From: SAR202 cluster bacterium bin87
GTDB taxonomy: Bacteria; Chloroflexota; Dehalococcoidia; Lucifugimonadales; UBA3495
Assembly: GCA_002238825.1 (NCBI GenBank)
Contig: MPNC01000001.1
Coordinates: forward strand, 62,001-126,000
Reading direction: 5' to 3'
DNA: 64,000 nucleotides
Positions 45,454 through 58,346 of the stretch are shown here, piece after piece (position 1 is the stretch's first letter; every line of letters starts with the position of its first letter). The notes beneath the pieces are model-generated. The model had not been told where the DNA came from. It was given only the letters and a program-made list of their open reading frames with translations, and did no database searches. A program made the translations under genes and the position numbers.

Positions 45454-48400
45454 ATGGACGCCCGGCGGCTTCGTCTCTTAGCCCCCCTGCCCAGGCTGTG
45501 GGGGCCTAATTTTCTGTTGCCAGCGCTGCTGATCGCCGCGCTGGCCCTCCGCCTGTACGGCATCGACTGGGACCAGGGGCACGGATTCCACCCTGACGAG
45601 CGGTCGTTCTACCTGCGTGCGGACGACATGTTCCGCGTGCTCACCGAGGCGCCGGGCCACGAGACCTGGCTGGCCCAGTGGCCCGAAATGCGGGCCGGCC
45701 TGCCCGACATTGGGACCGCGCTGTCAGCAGAGCATAGCCCTCTCAACCCGCACTGGTTCCCGCTGGGCAGCAGCCTGATCTACGCGCTGGTGCTGATCCG
45801 TTCGGTGGCCGAGCTGTTCACTGACTGGGGCACAATGGACATGCGGTTCGCCGGCCGGACTCTGGCCGCCCTGGCCGATACGGCGTCGGTGTTCCTCGTG
45901 TTCGCAATCGGACGCCGGATGTACGGACGCTGGACTTGCCTACTGGCAGCCGCCCTGACCGCGTTCGCGGTCATCCACATCCAGCACGCTCACTTCTACC
46001 GTCCGGAACCGTTCACGGTGCTCACGTCGCTGGCGGCATTGTGGGCCATGCTCCGGTTCATGGACACGGCCCGGGTGCGCGACGCGGCCTTATTGGGCCT
46101 CCTGGTGGGCTTGGCCATGGCTCCCAAGGTGTCGGTCGCGCCAATACTGGCGCCTCTTGTCCTGGTGTTCCTCTGGACCTGGAAAGACCGTGCCGGCGGC
46201 CGCTGGGCGGATCTGACGGTGTGGTCCGCCGTCCGCTTCGCGCCGACAGTTTTGCTGGCCGGAGTGCTGGCGTTGGCCGCGTTTTTCATTACCACTCCAT
46301 ATGCGTTCCTCGATTTCAGCACCTTCATCTCCGACATCGGGGCGCAAGCAGAAATGGCGCGGGAGGCCGGTCACTGGCCCTTCACCTGGCAATACGCCGA
46401 CACGCCGGCATTCTGGTACCAGATCCGTCAGACGTCGGTTTGGGGTTTGGGATTGCCGCTCGGCATCGTCGCCTGGGTCGCAGCCCCGTTCACCGCGTGG
46501 ATGGCCTGGCGAGGAGGTGTAACCCAGCGGTTTGATCTCCTGTTGCTGGCCTGGGCCGTACCTGCCTTCGTGTTCCTGGAGTTATTCGAGGTCAAGTTCC
46601 TGCGGTATGTGTTCCCGCTCATGCCCTTCTACGTGCTCATGGGGGCGCGCATGCTGGTCTGTTTCATAGAATGGACGCAGCGGCAGCGTTCCCGCATTCC
46701 GGGAGACGTGTCCCCTCCGCCCGACGACGCGCCCTTCTCGGAGGAATGGCACGCCACGCCGCCCACCATCGGCGACGATCTGATCTTCGACGAGCCGCTC
46801 TTCGGCGATGATGCGCCGTTCTCGGAGGAGTGGCACGCCACGCCTCCCACCGGCGGCATGCTGGTTTCGGCCACCGGGCGGCCGGTGGAACCCGACATCC
46901 CGGCAGACCATCCGCCCTCGCATTGGCAACTGTTTGCGGACCGGGGCCGGCGGTACGCCTATCCGGTCAGCGTCGCGGCGCTGGTCATCGTCGTCGCGTC
47001 TACGGTCCTGTACGCCCTCGCCTTTTCCGGCATCTACAGTCGGCCTCACACTGTAGTGACGGCCGCAGAGTGGATCAACGCCAACGTGCCGCCCGGCGCG
47101 TCCATCATCAACGGTGGCTCCTTCTGGGATGAGCGCATACCCGACCTCGGCAGGTACGACGTCTGGACGTTTGCGGCCTATCATCCCGACGATGACCGTA
47201 GCAAGGTCCCCGATCTGGTTGACCGCCTGTCCTCGAGCGACCACATCGTTTTCTACTCCAACCGCGCCTACGGGTCGGTGGCCCGTCTGCCCGACGAGTA
47301 CCCGCAGAGTTCGGCGTTCCTAAGACTGCTTTTCGCCGGAGACCTGGGTTACCGGCTGGAGCGGTCATTCTCCTCATACTCCTCGCTGGCTGGCTTTGAG
47401 TTGCGCGACGATCCCTACGCCCGCGCTGGCCTCTCCGCGCCGCCTGGCTCCGACCCGAGCCGGTCGGAAACGCGGGCCGGCTTCGGGTTGAACCTGGGGT
47501 ATGCCGACGAAAACGTCATCGCGTATGACCACCCGCAGGTGCTGGTGTTCCGAAACGCGGATCGCCTGACTTCCAGTGAAATCAGGTCTCGCATCGAAGA
47601 CGCGACGGTACGGCGGGAAGATACACCGCAACTGATGCTGCCGCCCGACGCGATGGAGGCTCAAGAGAGCGGAGGCACCTGGTCGGAAGTGTTCCGGCGG
47701 GACGGCTGGGCCAACCGGGTACCGTGGCTGAGCTGGTTCCTGGCTCTGGAACTCACTTGCCTGATCGCGTTCCCGCTGACCTGGTGGATCCTGCGTCCGC
47801 TGCACGACCGGGGACTCCTGTTTTCCCGAGTCGTGGGTATGCTCCTGGTCGCGTGGGTGGCGTGGGTGCTGGTCAACTCCGGTGCTGTCCAGTTTTCGCT
47901 GGGAGCCATAATTTTCGCCATGCTGATCGTGGCGATACCATCGGCGGCGCTCCTGGCGGTTCGTTGGCGGGAAATGGCCGAATGGCTGCGGGAACACTGG
48001 CGCATGGTCGTCGCCGCCGAGGCGCTGTTCGTGCTCGCGTACCTGGCCTTCGTGCTGATCCGGGCGGCCAATCCGGACCTGTGGCATCCGTGGCGCGGCG
48101 GTGAGAAGCCCATGGAGTTGGCCTATTTCACTGCGGTGGCTCGCTCCTCGGTGCTGCCGCCTTACGACCCGTGGTTCGCTGGCGGGTACCTGAACTACTA
48201 CTACTGGGGCTACTTCATCCTCTCCATTCCCACACGCCTGACCGGCATCCCGCCGGTGACGGCGTTCAACCTGGCCGTGCCGACCCTCTTTGCCCTGACG
48301 GCCACCGGCGCGGGAGCCCTGGCGTACTACTTCGTCAAAGCGGCCGGCGGAGGTCGTGCGGAAGCCCGGTCGCCCGATCCGTCAGTACGCAGTTGGACAC

Positions 48401-50166
48401 TAATGGTTCCATGGCGTCGCATGCGACGGTGGCTACCCGGCAGCGCGGCAGTAGTGGGTCTGGCGTCAGCAGTGATGGTTGCAGTTGCCGGCAACCTGGA
48501 CGGGGCAGTTCAGCTTCTGCACATTCTGTGGGGCAGGGTCAACGGCATGGCCACGCCCCTGTCGAGTTTCGATTTCTGGCGCAGCAGCCGCGCGATACCG
48601 GAGATCCCGAACTTCGAACCCAACTCTCTGACCTCGTGGCTGGAGGCGCGCGATCACGTCGATCTCGGGTTTCACATCACCGAGTTCCCGTATTTCACCT
48701 TCCTCTTCGCCGACCTGCACGCCCACATGATGACGATGCCCTTTGCGCTGCTTGCCGTGGCGCTGGGGTTCGCGACGCTGATGGGCGTGTCGAAAAGCGG
48801 GCCCCAAAGCGTCTGGACGTGGGTGTGCGCCGCCCTGATGGGGCTGGCGGTGGGAAGCCTGTGGACCATCAACTCCTGGGAGTATCCGGCGTACGCCCTG
48901 CTCATGGTCGGGTTCGCTGTCGCAGCGGCATGGATGATGCCGGGCGACCTCAAGGCGCGGGTGGCTCTCGGCATCGCCCTCTCAATGGTGGCTCTGGTGG
49001 TTAGCTACGCGGCATTCCTACCGTTCCACGCCGCGACGGAGACCTTCGGCACCGGCATCGAGCCGACTCGCTGGCGCACCCCGCTGGCCAACTACCTGCT
49101 GATACACGCGCTGTCGTTGTTTGCAGCATTGGCGTTGCTTACGGCGACGCTACCCAAAGCAGTCGCCCCCGTGTTGTCGCGAATCAGAGCCGCAACCCCG
49201 ATTCCGGCTGTGCACCAATGGCTCCTGCTGGGCGCGTTGGCCGGCATCGCGCTGGCGTGCTGCTTCTGGGCGGCGGGCTTCCTGACCGCCGGCGTGCTGA
49301 TGGTGCTCCTCACGTTGGCCTGTTGGTCGCTGGCTGCGACGGTGCTACGCGGCGATGATCCGGCCACGCGGTCGGACATTGCGGCCCTGGGGATGCTGGC
49401 CACCGGTCTGGCCATCGGCATCGGCGTGGACTTCATCCGCGTCGAGGGTGACATCGCCCGGATGAACACCCTGTTCAAGTACTACCTGGTGGCGTGGCTG
49501 CTGTTCGGCGTGGCCGGAGCCTACGGTTTCTGGAGAGGCTGGACGGCGCGGCGTTCTCATCAGAGCTTCTTCGGCAGTCTGCTACGCCTTTCGTTTGCCC
49601 AGGTGGTCGCGATAGTCGCGGTCGGGGTGATGATATACCCGGCGCTGGCAACACCCGTCCGCATCCAGGACCGCTTCCACTCCACGCCGTTGACCCTGGA
49701 CGGTGCCGCGTGGATGTCCGACGCCGTCCACTGGGAACGCGACGAGCCCATCGAAATGCGTTGGGACGCCGATGCCATTCGTTGGTTGCAGGACAACGTC
49801 TCGGGAACCCCGGCGGTGCTGGAGGCCCACGGCGACCAGTACCGCTGGAACGGCCGGATGTCGGTGTACACCGGGCTGCCCACCGTGATCGGCTGGCCGT
49901 GGCACCAGACCCAGCAGCGCAATGACTGGGACCTGATACGGAGGCGGGCGCGGGACGTGTCCAGCATCTACAACACCCTCAGCAAGAAGGCGGCGCTGGA
50001 TCTGATCGAGCAGTACAGCGTGCGCTACATCGTGGTGGGCGACCTGGAGCGGATCTATTACCTTCCCGACGGCATCGAAAAATTCGAGCAGATGGTTGAG
50101 GCCGGCGATCTTGAATTGGCCTACGCCAACGACCGGACCACTATCTACCGTGTCTTGGACAGGTAG
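45454..50166 (+). CDS. DUF2298 / Chlor_Arch_YYY-type membrane glycosyltransferase
   Basis: A 1570-residue polytopic protein. Residues 1-420 form a GT39/PMT-like half (GFHPDERSFYLR near 45-56 with the Asp-Glu of the catalytic loop, RPEPFTVLTSLAALWAM). Residues about 740-1500 form the YYY half (AGGYLNYYYWGYFILSIPTR near 909-928, HITEFPYFTFLFADLHAHMM). The C-terminal soluble part contains AHGDQYRWNGRMSVYTGLP and GWPWHQTQQRNDW, as in the YYY family. A lipid-linked sugar donor is expected but unproven. An acidic linker at about 415-470 contains a repeated DDAPFSEEWHATPPT. It may transfer sugars to proteins or lipids at the outer face of the membrane. Confidence 0.9.
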   Translation: MDARRLRLLAPLPRLWGPNFLLPALLIAALALRLYGIDWDQGHGFHPDERSFYLRADDMFRVLTEAPGHETWLAQWPEMRAGLPDIGTALSAEHSPLNPHWFPLGSSLIYALVLIRSVAELFTDWGTMDMRFAGRTLAALADTASVFLVFAIGRRMYGRWTCLLAAALTAFAVIHIQHAHFYRPEPFTVLTSLAALWAMLRFMDTARVRDAALLGLLVGLAMAPKVSVAPILAPLVLVFLWTWKDRAGGRWADLTVWSAVRFAPTVLLAGVLALAAFFITTPYAFLDFSTFISDIGAQAEMAREAGHWPFTWQYADTPAFWYQIRQTSVWGLGLPLGIVAWVAAPFTAWMAWRGGVTQRFDLLLLAWAVPAFVFLELFEVKFLRYVFPLMPFYVLMGARMLVCFIEWTQRQRSRIPGDVSPPPDDAPFSEEWHATPPTIGDDLIFDEPLFGDDAPFSEEWHATPPTGGMLVSATGRPVEPDIPADHPPSHWQLFADRGRRYAYPVSVAALVIVVASTVLYALAFSGIYSRPHTVVTAAEWINANVPPGASIINGGSFWDERIPDLGRYDVWTFAAYHPDDDRSKVPDLVDRLSSSDHIVFYSNRAYGSVARLPDEYPQSSAFLRLLFAGDLGYRLERSFSSYSSLAGFELRDDPYARAGLSAPPGSDPSRSETRAGFGLNLGYADENVIAYDHPQVLVFRNADRLTSSEIRSRIEDATVRREDTPQLMLPPDAMEAQESGGTWSEVFRRDGWANRVPWLSWFLALELTCLIAFPLTWWILRPLHDRGLLFSRVVGMLLVAWVAWVLVNSGAVQFSLGAIIFAMLIVAIPSAALLAVRWREMAEWLREHWRMVVAAEALFVLAYLAFVLIRAANPDLWHPWRGGEKPMELAYFTAVARSSVLPPYDPWFAGGYLNYYYWGYFILSIPTRLTGIPPVTAFNLAVPTLFALTATGAGALAYYFVKAAGGGRAEARSPDPSVRSWTLMVPWRRMRRWLPGSAAVVGLASAVMVAVAGNLDGAVQLLHILWGRVNGMATPLSSFDFWRSSRAIPEIPNFEPNSLTSWLEARDHVDLGFHITEFPYFTFLFADLHAHMMTMPFALLAVALGFATLMGVSKSGPQSVWTWVCAALMGLAVGSLWTINSWEYPAYALLMVGFAVAAAWMMPGDLKARVALGIALSMVALVVSYAAFLPFHAATETFGTGIEPTRWRTPLANYLLIHALSLFAALALLTATLPKAVAPVLSRIRAATPIPAVHQWLLLGALAGIALACCFWAAGFLTAGVLMVLLTLACWSLAATVLRGDDPATRSDIAALGMLATGLAIGIGVDFIRVEGDIARMNTLFKYYLVAWLLFGVAGAYGFWRGWTARRSHQSFFGSLLRLSFAQVVAIVAVGVMIYPALATPVRIQDRFHSTPLTLDGAAWMSDAVHWERDEPIEMRWDADAIRWLQDNVSGTPAVLEAHGDQYRWNGRMSVYTGLPTVIGWPWHQTQQRNDWDLIRRRARDVSSIYNTLSKKAALDLIEQYSVRYIVVGDLERIYYLPDGIEKFEQMVEAGDLELAYANDRTTIYRVLDR

Positions 50167-52835: not shown

Positions 52836-53378
52836 CTACCTGTCGACCAGGCAGGCAATCGCCTGGGCCGCCGCCGTGGCTGCCCGCTCGGACAGCTCGG
52901 CATCCGTCAGGGTTACGATGGGATGCTCGATGATCGCCAGCCCGTACTCCGGGTCCCCGCGCATGCGGGACATGGCGTGGGCCTGGCTCACGAAGGGTCG
53001 GGTGGTCAACACGGTGGAAGGGATGCCCAGCAACTCGGTTTCCATTGCGTCGTGCACACTGCACGCGGTACAGGACCCTCATTCCGCCGTGGCGTGAATT
53101 GCAACGTCAATGCTCTTTGCGGTGCGCTGCAGGTCCTCGATGCGGGCCGGCCACTGCCAGCCGCCCTTGTTGTGCTCCACCGTGCCGCCGATGTCGTATC
53201 GCTCGCCGATGATGGCGGCGATGCGTCGGAGCAGGTCTTCGGAGTGGGGCTTGTTGTTGGCAAACAGCCCGATAACCTTCCCGTCCAGGGTCGCCGGGCG
53301 CTGCGCCAACCGCGACGGCGCCGCCGGAGAGTCGTCACGCGGGTCCAGCGTGACGATGGGAGAGCCTTGTGTAGTCAT
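52836..53378 (-). CDS. UGSC-family selenoprotein (in-frame UGA read as selenocysteine)
   Basis: A 180-residue protein if the UGA at 53081-53079 is decoded as selenocysteine (residue 100). The upstream part (99 residues, KVIGLFANNKPHSEDLLRRI, IDVAIHATAE) and the downstream part (GSCTACSVHDAMETELLGIP, PTVLTTRPFVSQAHAM) are in the same frame. They join exactly as the family motif U-G-S-C, so the interruption is not random. AGGAGGTC precedes the ATG. Thirteen bases after UGA a perfect hairpin CGTGCA-GTG-TGCACG (53065-53051) with G first in the loop fits a bacterial SECIS element. The UGSC family is known from marine metagenomes as (seleno)proteins of unknown function with a redox-active centre. 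A gene 57 bases upstream is its likely partner. Confidence 0.85.
53051..53065 (-). promoter_or_regulatory. Candidate SECIS hairpin downstream of UGA
   Basis: On the minus strand the sequence after UGA contains CGTGCA, loop GTG, TGCACG: six perfect base pairs. The stem begins 14 and the loop 20 bases after the UGA, within the range known for bacterial SECIS elements, which have a G at the loop start. Confidence 0.6.
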
Positions 53379-53434
53379 GCGATGACCTCCTGGTGCGGGA
53401 TCAGCCCGCTGGATAGCGTGGGATCACTATGGCG

Positions 53435-54436
53435 TCAGTTGGGTACGGCCACCTGGCGGGTCACCGAGCGGCTGGAGCCCCAGGTGCTGATCAGGCTGAT
53501 GAACGCGCCGGCCATGCCGCCCCCGGGCAGGACGGTGATCCGGTCGGCTTCCGGAACCACCGGCACCAGCCGATCGTGATCCAGTTCATGCCCCATTCGT
53601 TTCCAGCGCATCCACTCCGCGACCGGCAGTCGCGCCTTGTCGTGCAGGAAGTCGGCGACCCGCTGACGCGACCAGCCTGCCGCCGCCACGTGCTGCATGG
53701 CCTCGGGGCTGATCACGCAGATCACTTCGGGCATGCCCGGGCCAAAGGCCAACATGGCGTGGGCCACGGTGGTCAGGAAGTCCGCCGGATCCCGGTCGCC
53801 ATGCAGGGTTACCTGCAGGGGGGCCAGGGTGGCGAAGGCTCTAACGATCGTAGCGTCGTCGCCGTAGCCCAGTTCCGATGCCAGGGACGGCCACGGGCTG
53901 ATGGCCAGGTTCTCGGGGAAGCTGAAGGTGATCTTGCCGGCGTGGCCGAAGGTGCTATTGTCCATCACCACCGGAACTGAACCGTAGAAGTTGGACTTGA
54001 ACAGGTTCACCGCGCGCCCGATGGCGGCGTTGGCGCGGCTTCCGTTGCCCATCATCTCCACGCCGGCGTTCATTCCGATGGTCTCGGCGTAGGGACCGCT
54101 GACCACTGTGAGCACCGTCGCTCCGTTGGTGGAGGTGCTGCTGGCGTGCAGGTTGAAGCTGCGGTCCGTGATCGCCGACAGCGCCGCCATCACCACCGGA
54201 AAATGCTCCGGCAGGCAACCAGCCATGACGGCGTTTACCGCGGCCTTGCCGGCCGTGAACCGCTTCTGCCGGATGATCTCAGTTCCCAGGTCGTGGTCGG
54301 CGTCCACGCCGGCATAGTCCAGCATGGCCTGAACGCGTTCCGGGGTGGGTGGAACGACGGGCAATCCGTCGGTGAGACCGTTGGAGAAGTAAAACTCCTG
54401 GACGTCGTTCCAATCGGCGAAACTGTGGGTGGTCAT
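53435..54436 (-). CDS. Conserved hypothetical protein, partner of the UGSC selenoprotein
   Basis: A 333-residue protein on the same strand, 57 bases upstream of the UGSC gene. The N-terminus reads FYFSNGLTDGLPVVPPTPER, followed by AAVNAVMAGCLPEHFPVVMA, GPYAETIGMNAGVEMMGNGS and ANAAIGRAVNLFKSNFYG. The GLTDGLPVVPPT and NAVMAGC-PE-PVV stretches look strongly conserved, and similar sequences occur next to UGSC-type genes as far as I recall; I cannot name a biochemical function. Cys in VMAGC could pair with the selenocysteine of its partner. No signal peptide or membrane segments are evident. Confidence 0.7.
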   Translation of the reverse strand: MTTHSFADWNDVQEFYFSNGLTDGLPVVPPTPERVQAMLDYAGVDADHDLGTEIIRQKRFTAGKAAVNAVMAGCLPEHFPVVMAALSAITDRSFNLHASSTSTNGATVLTVVSGPYAETIGMNAGVEMMGNGSRANAAIGRAVNLFKSNFYGSVPVVMDNSTFGHAGKITFSFPENLAISPWPSLASELGYGDDATIVRAFATLAPLQVTLHGDRDPADFLTTVAHAMLAFGPGMPEVICVISPEAMQHVAAAGWSRQRVADFLHDKARLPVAEWMRWKRMGHELDHDRLVPVVPEADRITVLPGGGMAGAFISLISTWGSSRSVTRQVAVPN

Positions 54437-54850: not shown

Positions 54851-56248
54851 TCAGTGCCGTAAGCCGCCTCGCCTGAAGTCCGGGGCCTCCATGGGCATTT
54901 CGGTCACCACCAGCGGGTCCTGCAGCCGGGAGGCGATGCGGGGGCGGGCGGATGCGATGGCCTCGATCTGCTGAGATGTGGTGACGATGGTGGGCAGCCG
55001 CTCCTCGTACCGGTACCCCATGATCTGGAACAGCTTGTCCTCGGCGAAGGGCGTGCTGCGCTCGGCTCCCATGTCGTCCAGCACCAGCACGTCGGCGTTG
55101 CGGATTCGGTCCAACAGGTCGTCGTGGTTGACTGCGCTGTCCGGGGCGAAGGTGGCCCGAAGATAATCGAGGAGATCGGCCACCGTCGCAAAGAAGACCT
55201 CATCGCCGCGGTCTTCGCGCTCGGCCGCGGCGGCCACCGCCAGGTGGGTCTTGCCCACGCCGTAGGGGCCGTGCAGGCTCAGCCAACCACCGGGACTGTT
55301 CGCCCACCGCTGCATGTAGGACTTGGCGGCGCGGAGGCTGCGTTGCTGATGGTCGGTCAGCCGGCCGTTGCCGGCCGGATCGAAAGCTGCGAAGGTCATC
55401 CGCGCCCGCATGTTGGGCGGGATTGCTCCAATGGATCGAGCCCCGGAACCTCCCACCCGGCCCAACCGGTAAAGCCGCCCGAACCCGTCAGGCGATTCCA
55501 GCCGCGTGCGCAGGAACTCGTCCAGCCGGCCGGGGTCGCCACGCAGGCTGACCACTGTGGGCAAGCGCGCCGCGTGCCGCGAGGCCAACAGTTGGAACAA
55601 CCGCTCCTGAGTCCACGGAGTTGACGGCCGGGTGGGCAGGTCGTCCAGGACCAACAACGGCGCGTGGCGAACCTGATCGAACAGGTCAACGAATGGCTGG
55701 TCGGCTTCGTCATCGAAACCGCTGCGCAGGTAATCGATGAGATCCGCCGCGGTGATGAACAGGGCCGGACTGCCCATCTCGATTCGCCGGTTGGCGATGG
55801 CGGCGGCCAGGTAGGTCTTGCCGCTCCCGCTGGGCCCGACCAAGGTCAGCCACCCGTCCGGGTTTTCGGCGTAGGCGACGGCGACGGCGAGAGCGTTCCG
55901 GAAGGCCTGCCGCGAGGCCTCCTCCTGGCTCAGGCCGTCCGGATTGGCGGTCTCGAACGTGGCCTGGCGCAGGGACCCGAGGTTGCTGTACCGCTCCAAG
56001 GCTTCGACCCGTTGCCGCCGGTCGACGTCCTGCTCCTGGCATTGGCAGGGGAATACCTTCCCGAAATCAGGATTGGTTACGTGGACCCGTCGCGTGACCC
56101 AACCCGCGCCGCCGCACCGCTCGCAATCCTCAGCCCCGGTCCGGCTCTGCGGGCTCCCAGGGAAGTCGGCCGTGTCGGCGTCGATAGCTGTCCAGGTATC
56201 CCGAGCGGCTATCCGGCGCAGTATCGTTCCCAGGCTTTCCATGCTCAT
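54851..56248 (-). CDS. Helicase-loader-like protein with two AAA+ domains
   Basis: A 465-residue protein with the architecture zinc finger - AAA+ - AAA+. The Zn ligands are C42, C45 (CERCGG), C68 and C70 (PCQCQ), as in the N-terminal region of DnaC/DnaI. Domain 1 has Walker A GPSGSGKTYL near 137 and Walker B PLLVLDDLP; domain 2 has Walker A GPYGVGKTHL near 327 and Walker B DVLVLDDMGAERS, then a sensor-like ARPRIASRL. DnaC and DnaI normally have one AAA+ domain, so the duplication is unusual. It follows dnaB and a DnaD-like gene in the same operon and likely loads DnaB. The first 119 bases overlap the DnaD-like gene in another frame. Confidence 0.85.
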   Translation of the reverse strand: MSMESLGTILRRIAARDTWTAIDADTADFPGSPQSRTGAEDCERCGGAGWVTRRVHVTNPDFGKVFPCQCQEQDVDRRQRVEALERYSNLGSLRQATFETANPDGLSQEEASRQAFRNALAVAVAYAENPDGWLTLVGPSGSGKTYLAAAIANRRIEMGSPALFITAADLIDYLRSGFDDEADQPFVDLFDQVRHAPLLVLDDLPTRPSTPWTQERLFQLLASRHAARLPTVVSLRGDPGRLDEFLRTRLESPDGFGRLYRLGRVGGSGARSIGAIPPNMRARMTFAAFDPAGNGRLTDHQQRSLRAAKSYMQRWANSPGGWLSLHGPYGVGKTHLAVAAAAEREDRGDEVFFATVADLLDYLRATFAPDSAVNHDDLLDRIRNADVLVLDDMGAERSTPFAEDKLFQIMGYRYEERLPTIVTTSQQIEAIASARPRIASRLQDPLVVTEMPMEAPDFRRGGLRH

Positions 56249-56960: not shown

Positions 56961-58346
56961 CTAGGCGACGGACTCCTCGTATCGCGCCAGCTCGTCGAAC
57001 CGCATCAGGTTGTCCCGGAAGTATAGGTGGAAGCTCCCGGTCGGGCCGTGCCGGTGCTTGGCCACAATCAACTCAACGATGTTTCGTGGATATGGCTGGC
57101 CGGGGGCGTGCTGCTCCCACTCGTCCTCGGTGAAATTGCGGTCCTCACGGTACAGGAAGGTCACCACGTCGGCGTCCTGCTCGATGCTGCCGCTGTCCCG
57201 CAGGTCGGAAAGCTGCGGGCGATGGCCGGGGCGGTTTTCCACCACGCGGCTGAGCTGCGAGCAGGTGAAAACCGGTACGTTCAGGTCCCGGGCCATGCCC
57301 TTCAGTGACCGGGAGATCTCGCTGATTTCCTGCACCCGGTTCTCGCCATAGCCCTGCCGCCGGCCGCCGCCCTGGATCAGCTGGAGGTAGTCGACCACCA
57401 GGAAGTCCAGGCCATGTTCCAGCTGCAGCCGTTGGGCCTTGCTCCGCATGTCCATGGTGGTCTGGAAGGGGGTATCGTCGATGAAGACGGGAAGGCCGGA
57501 CAGCAGACCCACGGCGTCGGAGATCACGTTCTGCTCGCTCTCCGACAGCAGGCCCAGTCTGAGACGGTGCGAGTCGACCCCCGATTCGGCGACGAGCATG
57601 CGCATGGCCACCTGCTCGCGGCTCATCTCCAGGCTGAAGATGCCGCAGGTCTGGCCGGATTTCGCCGCGTTGGTGCAGATGTTCAGGGCCAGGCTGCTCT
57701 TGCCCAACCCGGGACGCGCGCCAACGATCAGCAGGTCGGAGCGCTGCATCCCGCCCAACAGGCTGTCGAAGTCGCTGTAGCCGCTCTGGAGGGGTGGCTC
57801 GTCGGTCAGCGATACGTCGCCGATGTCACCCTGCAGGTACACGTCGAGCACTGAGCTCAGCGGTATGAAGCCGCGGTCGTCGCCGGTAGGGCGGACACCG
57901 AAGAGCACCTCCACCGACTGGCGCATCGTTTCGTCGATGTCCGAGCTCTCGTCGAACCCGAGTTCGGCGATGCGGTTGCCCGCCTGGATGACCCGCCGCT
58001 TGGCCGCCGTCTCGGCGACGATGGCGGCGTAGTGTTCGACGTTGACCGACGTGGGTGTGCCGGCAATCAGTTGACCCAGGTAGGGCAGCCCGCCCACTTG
58101 CTCCAGCCGCCCCTGGGTTTGCAGTTCCCGGGCGACGGTGATCTGGTCGATGGCCTCCTGGCGGGAGAAGACCGCCAGGCAGGCGGCAAAGCAGAACTGG
58201 TGACGGGCCCGGTGAAAGTCCTCGGGCTTGATCACCGGGGTCACCCGGTGCAGCGCGTCGCCGTCGATGAGCAGCGCGCCCAGAACCGCGGCCTCGGCCT
58301 CAAGGTCGTGGGGCAATTGCCGTTCGCTGTACGGGTCGGCGACCAC
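56961..58346 (-). CDS. dnaB: Replicative DNA helicase
   Basis: A 461-residue DnaB. The N-terminal domain (PHDLEAEAAVLGALLID, 12-28) is followed by the linker and the RecA-like C-terminal domain with Walker A GARPGLGKSS (209-218), a Walker B near LDFLVVDYLQLIQGGG, and the SRSLKGMARDLNVPVFTCSQ region with the arginine-finger-containing end. It unwinds DNA at the replication fork as a hexamer. GTG at 58346 has GAGGAG in front. Operon order on the minus strand: rplI, dnaB, DnaD-like, loader. Confidence 0.97.
   Translation of the reverse strand: MVADPYSERQLPHDLEAEAAVLGALLIDGDALHRVTPVIKPEDFHRARHQFCFAACLAVFSRQEAIDQITVARELQTQGRLEQVGGLPYLGQLIAGTPTSVNVEHYAAIVAETAAKRRVIQAGNRIAELGFDESSDIDETMRQSVEVLFGVRPTGDDRGFIPLSSVLDVYLQGDIGDVSLTDEPPLQSGYSDFDSLLGGMQRSDLLIVGARPGLGKSSLALNICTNAAKSGQTCGIFSLEMSREQVAMRMLVAESGVDSHRLRLGLLSESEQNVISDAVGLLSGLPVFIDDTPFQTTMDMRSKAQRLQLEHGLDFLVVDYLQLIQGGGRRQGYGENRVQEISEISRSLKGMARDLNVPVFTCSQLSRVVENRPGHRPQLSDLRDSGSIEQDADVVTFLYREDRNFTEDEWEQHAPGQPYPRNIVELIVAKHRHGPTGSFHLYFRDNLMRFDELARYEESVA

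Follow-up and report, generated by a model that had tools for sequence, protein, structure and literature searches.

Two adjacent reading frames on the minus strand of the window (the whole 64,000-nucleotide stretch of DNA analysed here) are separated only by a UGA, which raises the question of whether they encode two short proteins or a single selenoprotein, and what such a protein might do. A sequence-only reading of this DNA had placed a UGSC-family selenoprotein at 52836..53378 (-), and both these coordinates and its description of two same-frame ORFs split by one UGA are correct. The gene starts with an ATG at 53378, behind a Shine-Dalgarno sequence (AGGAGG, 53386..53391 (-)), and its frame runs from MTTQ to AE, across the UGA at 53079..53081 (-) into GSCTACSVHDAME, and on to VDR and the terminating TAG at 52836-52838. 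Read through, it encodes 180 residues with selenocysteine (Sec) as residue 100, codon 100 being the sole in-frame TGA.

The read-through product matches Pfam PF24696 from end to end (143.7 bits, E 8.1e-42, profile positions 3-171 of 172; gathering cut-off 25 bits), and both halves match separately: residues 11-97 of the N-terminal half align with profile positions 3-90 (E 3e-12) and the C-terminal ORF with positions 101-171 (E 4e-15). This HMM alignment bears out the family identity that had been proposed. With C written for U, the product scores 105.7 bits (E 2.1e-30) against the NCBIfam equivalog UGSC_fam (NF041046), under the curated cut-off of 125, and we therefore assign it to the Pfam family, not to the equivalog. 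The motif around the UGA is AE-U-GSCTAC (residues 98-106), that is, U-G-S-C with a UGA-coded Sec, as the sequence-only reading had it. The UGSC family itself has been known since 2008 (GOS 2008, PMC2398784), and the window's gene is a new member. It shares with the family the end-to-end Pfam match, the U-G-S-C motif, the UGA codon and the SECIS element; however, U is preceded by AE here but by GD or AD in most relatives, and the window's genome holds eight copies. The UGSC selenoproteins of Geodermatophilaceae, going by their citation in PMC5330540, have the family and the position of the Sec motif in common with ours, but are encoded by UAG and a CUA tRNA-Sec, whereas the window's genome uses UGA and a UCA tRNA-Sec.

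The inference that this organism makes selenoproteins held when its genome (4.96 Mb, 67 contigs) was searched: SelB (352.7 bits), SelA (544.5) and SelD (373.1) are all present, as is a tRNA-Sec with anticodon TCA (UCA), so that a lack of Sec machinery does not speak against it. Nor do close homologues show a plain stop followed by unrelated sequence. Each of the eight UGSC genes in the genome has a single in-frame TGA, located at the motif, which adds seven paralogues with UGA at the same codon; a class-wide search returned exactly one TGA in every match listed (~150); and among 76 UGSC loci beside the partner gene described below, drawn from many phyla, 75 have UGA at the motif codon, with homologous sequence beyond it. 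The 76th, from a haloarchaeon, has a plain Cys codon instead, and SelA was not found over the cut-off in that genome.

Across 148 genomes of the class, SelA exceeds the cut-off in 40 of 45 UGSC-positive genomes and in 50 of the 103 others (Fisher 2.7e-6). The five UGSC-positive genomes without SelA comprise three that are 71-81% complete, one with a borderline UGSC match (G043) and one that is 90% complete (G062). In nine further genomes, all eight carriers of the UGA form have SelA, and Natrialba asiatica, with a Cys codon, has none over the cut-off. Several of these nine are single-contig chromosomes, so the UGA forms in them count against assembly artefacts.

These data bear on two other explanations of the UGA. 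A pseudogene, a sequencing error or an ordinary stop between two short proteins would fit the two ORFs reported by standard gene calling, a split that the sequence-only reading had anticipated. We regard this as extremely improbable, given that the codon is UGA in all eight paralogues, in 112 different relatives and also in chromosomes assembled as a single contig, that both halves are conserved, and that there is a full Sec machinery and a SECIS element under selection (see below). Still more remote is a genome-wide reassignment of UGA, for example to Trp or Gly, for which the open frame alone speaks: each gene has one UGA at one motif position, Cys takes that position in the relative without SelA, and the genome encodes tRNA-Sec and SelA, SelB and SelD. 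On sequence evidence, then, translation of the window's gene through its UGA as a selenoprotein is confirmed.

Other candidate selenoproteins and expansions were seen along the way. SelD of the window's genome (L029, G000:C42:681408-682328) is probably a selenoprotein itself, because one in-frame TGA interrupts it. A PrdB-like protein (L185 / L197, G000:C9:298767-299180) has a TGA directly after its GRDB-domain match (LLTPT-U-PLC), followed by a long C-terminal extension, and is likely another. Eight UGSC genes, one of them a 590-residue frame, are likewise present on a named Dehalococcoidia chromosome (that of L124), and two class genomes, G027 and G028, show a striking expansion, each holding at least 22 copies; G027 had 207 first-look candidates.

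The sequence-only reading had also noted a perfect 6-bp hairpin with a G-first loop at SECIS distance past the UGA. This hairpin, CGTGCA-GTG-TGCACG (loop GUG), lies at 53051..53065 (-), and its loop, 19 nt after the UGA, falls inside the published range for bacterial SECIS elements. Since these bases also encode part of a conserved peptide, conservation of the hairpin by itself proves little. We therefore compared pairing with a control in which each gene was re-coded synonymously with its own codon usage. Over 112 distinct UGSC relatives, the six pairs are 91.8% Watson-Crick, compared to 59.6% in the control (s.d. 1.4; maximum of 200 runs 62.9%), and sliding one arm by 1-3 bases reduced pairing to 6-47%. 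Covariation is seen as well: at pair 21-27, 91 relatives have CG and 19 have GC, and pair 18-30 occurs as GC, GT or CG. In 109 of the 112, the loop reads GTN. A per-gene folding test gave weak signals gene by gene, although the family averaged -0.99 (controls, -0.05 to -0.22), and the window's copy alone gave z +0.22 against synonymous codings, which is not significant. The window's stretch is thus not unusually stable, and the evidence for the SECIS rests on the family rather than on this copy; the pair-wise synonymous test was used in place of the folding test. Together, the covariation and synonymous-codon comparisons are strong evidence, at the level of aligned sequences, that the RNA of this region is selected beyond the protein it encodes.

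What does the selenoprotein do? The sequence-only reading called it a redox protein of unknown role. The redox assignment is supported, but the role can be narrowed, since a partner gene, the eight copies and a link to glycine and proline reductase had been overlooked. The partner gene, at 53435..54436 (-), lies 56 bp upstream of the UGSC gene and encodes 333 aa with conserved motifs DG.P.VP, NAVMAGC and RAN..IGR. It has no match in Pfam or NCBIfam even at E 10 and is annotated as 'hypothetical protein' in the annotated records examined. Its closest relatives are in Chloroflexi and SAR202 genomes, which, together with the eight UGSC genes on the Dehalococcoidia chromosome of L124, makes the host probably a Dehalococcoidia/SAR202-like member of Chloroflexota.

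Every one of the eight partner paralogues in the window's genome is fused to a UGSC gene or lies close to one (in two cases with one gene between), and all eight UGSC genes likewise have a partner copy near them or fused to them. The two co-occur in 44 of the 148 class genomes, with UGSC alone in one and the partner alone in two (Fisher 5e-34). When named genomes were searched with the partner only, 80 loci were recovered from Chloroflexota, Rokubacteria, Burkholderiales, Alpha- and Gammaproteobacteria, Binatia, Actinomycetota, Acidobacteriota and one haloarchaeon; a UGSC gene was present in 76, on the same strand in 75 and within 200 bp in 71. Natural fusions exist in both domain orders, including a 573-residue frame that runs from UGSC through the UGA into the partner (L040). 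Judged by these patterns of occurrence, the partner is a near-obligate companion of UGSC. A UGSC fusion to a domain termed 'Unknown_1' was already reported in GOS 2008 (PMC2398784), and this may be the same domain as the partner.

The predicted structure of one fusion, L151 (pLDDT 92.9, pTM 0.91), is consistent with a packed two-domain unit; its fold search was filled by matches to the UGSC domain, and the viral library gave none. The Cys of NAVMAGC is kept in 96 of 107 partners, and a C-terminal CxxC tail, typically CxDC, is found in 32 of 106. Some fusions (L152, L095) have this conserved Cys replaced and were not used as folding queries, as their partner half lacks it. We also observed a divergent UGSC subfamily (L148:7556-8098 and L151:324-854) with the motif GA-U-G[AS]CTPAV.RAS, encoded with UGA and fused to a divergent partner.

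GrdB carries Sec in U-x-x-C-x-x-C (PMC13188914), and GrdB and PrdB-like selenoproteins occur in genomes of the class. When a profile of 114 UGSC sequences was aligned with one of 16 GrdB/PrdB-like proteins extended beyond Sec, hhalign gave scores of 47.7-49.0 (prob 86-92) with Sec placed on Sec, over a span of only about 77 columns; none of 60 column-shuffled decoys scored above 21. From this Sec-on-Sec profile homology, UGSC is plausibly the GrdB/PrdB catalytic domain standing alone. The two systems share this region, a second subunit encoded alongside and, in some UGSC relatives, a thioredoxin system nearby. They differ in that the 180-aa UGSC protein is without the large N-terminal part of GrdB, and Pfam GRDB (PF07355) gave no match to it at E 10. 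No relationship between the partner and GrdE was detected (hhalign prob 0.1 against GrdE-like neighbours of GrdB, which were recognised by position rather than by family search). UGSC occurs in Chloroflexota, Proteobacteria and haloarchaea and is not confined to amino-acid-fermenting anaerobes. No published statement of a UGSC-GrdB/PrdB link was found in a literature search that covered few subscription journals.

The UGSC model (pLDDT 93.8) alternates five strands and five helices (E-H-E-H-E-H-E-H-E-H), and its strands are ordered as in Rossmann/flavodoxin folds. Sec100 falls where strand 92-98 gives way to helix 101-116. The structures that the model matches best are of Rossmann, flavodoxin and CheY type, and the fold is predicted to be Rossmann/flavodoxin-like, not thioredoxin-like. 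A thioredoxin fold was considered and set aside, as its order (strand-helix-strand-helix-strand-strand-helix) differs from that of the predicted secondary structure. Neither GrdB/PrdB nor thioredoxin-fold structures appear among the structural matches listed, an absence that is no evidence either way, and PDB sequence searches with the UGSC and partner profiles gave nothing significant.

The predicted fold bears on the view that the selenoprotein is a general antioxidant, a peroxide or disulfide reductase that folds like thioredoxin and is assisted by the partner, an accessory protein or chaperone in this view. A thioredoxin-like fold and a redox role were proposed in GOS 2008 (PMC2398784), and the U-x-x-C motif and TrxB neighbours agree with that proposal. 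We consider it unlikely: the strand order and structural matches of the model point elsewhere, the neighbours include catabolic enzymes and transporters, and the paralogues, up to at least 20 per genome, fit varied substrates better than one antioxidant.

Across the 80 loci, the neighbours include MFS and TctC/TRAP transporters, type III CoA-transferase, enoyl-CoA hydratase, amidohydrolases, alpha/beta hydrolases and LysR regulators. In the window, the nearest genes downstream of UGSC encode a GFO/IDH/MocA oxidoreductase and an HpcH/HpaI aldolase on the opposite strand. A role on an inorganic or metal substrate or in selenium metabolism, rather than in organic catabolism, would be in keeping with a SelA gene among the neighbours (beside a UGSC gene in G028:C1) and with a Paracoccus ferrooxidans plasmid that has selB, dsrE and tusA nearby. 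Yet organic-acid and CoA-ester genes dominate the neighbourhoods, and Cys forms occur in haloarchaea, of which the one examined had no SelA scoring above the cut-off; we think such a role improbable.

Thioredoxin genes adjoin several relatives. Gene orders on plasmids of cultured organisms include trxB-trxA-partner-UGSC (Arthrobacter, strain ERGS1:01), partner-UGSC-trxB (Roseovarius, strain THAF8) and trxB...partner-UGSC (Variovorax), all three with Cys-form pairs, and TrxB-like genes occur at four more plasmid loci (L210, L212, L213, L214) and at L115 and L120. Assuming a rate of two such genes per 4 Mb, which is our own choice, seven TrxB-like genes in 17 plasmid loci would arise by chance with probability 4.7e-11 (8e-8 if the rate is tripled). 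Sec-form loci seldom adjoin TrxB: two of the 80 GTDB loci have TrxB and one further has TrxA. Among cultured carriers of the Sec form, Sheuella amnicola NBD-18 has a TrxB-like gene at its locus. The UGSC relatives adjoining thioredoxin reductase are mostly non-Sec forms.

We favour, as somewhat better than an even prospect, a reading in which UGSC supplies the Sec-bearing subunit, and the product of 53435-54436 the other subunit, of a reductase that is driven by thioredoxin and whose substrate is a small organic compound. The case for a two-gene enzyme comes from the complete pairing in the window's genome, the co-occurrence in the class, the 76 of 80 loci and the natural fusions, including the confidently folding L151. 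Thioredoxin is suggested as the driver because trxB and trxA lie beside Cys-form pairs, TrxB-like genes are neighbours elsewhere and some partners end in CxxC tails; a catabolic role is suggested by the transporter, CoA-transferase, hydratase, amidohydrolase and LysR neighbours. In this reductase, the partner would bind or activate the substrate, and the Sec100 selenolate, at a helix N-terminus past the third strand, would attack it or take part in reductive cleavage. Cys103, plus Cys106 where present, could then resolve the oxidised or substituted Sec, which thioredoxin and thioredoxin reductase would re-reduce, as is the case in glycine and proline reductase; paralogues may serve different catabolic substrates. 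Sec coding, SECIS, Sec machinery, pairing and fusion, profile homology and neighbours form the sequence-based layer of this model, to which we add the catalytic steps and the substrate by inference. Counted against it are the short GrdB alignment, the missing PF07355 match, the dissimilarity of partner and GrdE, the rarity of TrxB in Sec-form loci, the replacement of the partner's conserved Cys in some fusions and the Sporomusa and Vibrio fusions described below.

The wider claim seems to us evenly balanced: that UGSC and partner constitute an undescribed class of selenoenzyme, in which a GrdB/PrdB-type Sec domain and an unrelated substrate subunit, driven by thioredoxin, cleave or reduce varied organic substrates in many phyla and haloarchaea, with more than 20 copies in some genomes of this Chloroflexota class. 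UGSC, with 255 selenoprotein sequences in GOS (PMC2398784), is among the most abundant selenoproteins of aquatic metagenomes, and a 2026 review still describes its function as largely uncharacterised (PMC13188914). Taken with its partner gene, its link to GrdB/PrdB and its thioredoxin neighbours, an orphan redox protein becomes a testable two-protein enzyme with named cultured carriers; the near-obligate partner, the GrdB/PrdB alignment and the enzyme hypothesis are what is new here.

Plasmid fusions in Sporomusa (L202:6320-8041) and Vibrio (L203:6368-8050) have MGTS instead of UGSC, and aconitase X and DUF126 genes are found close by. The sequences of these fusions, which lack both Sec and Cys at the motif, show that the fold and architecture can exist without Sec chemistry. 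Phosphosulfolactate-synthase-like genes near the UGSC pair in one haloarchaeon and one Arthrobacter (L198 and L200) are a possible hint to the substrate. Elsewhere in the window, a gene for a protein with two tandem IstB/DnaC-like ATPase stretches (54851-56248 (-)) lies downstream of a DnaB helicase gene (56961-58346 (-)), and 45454-50166 (+) encodes a 1570-residue membrane protein with a mannosyltransferase-like PMT_2 domain and DUF2298.
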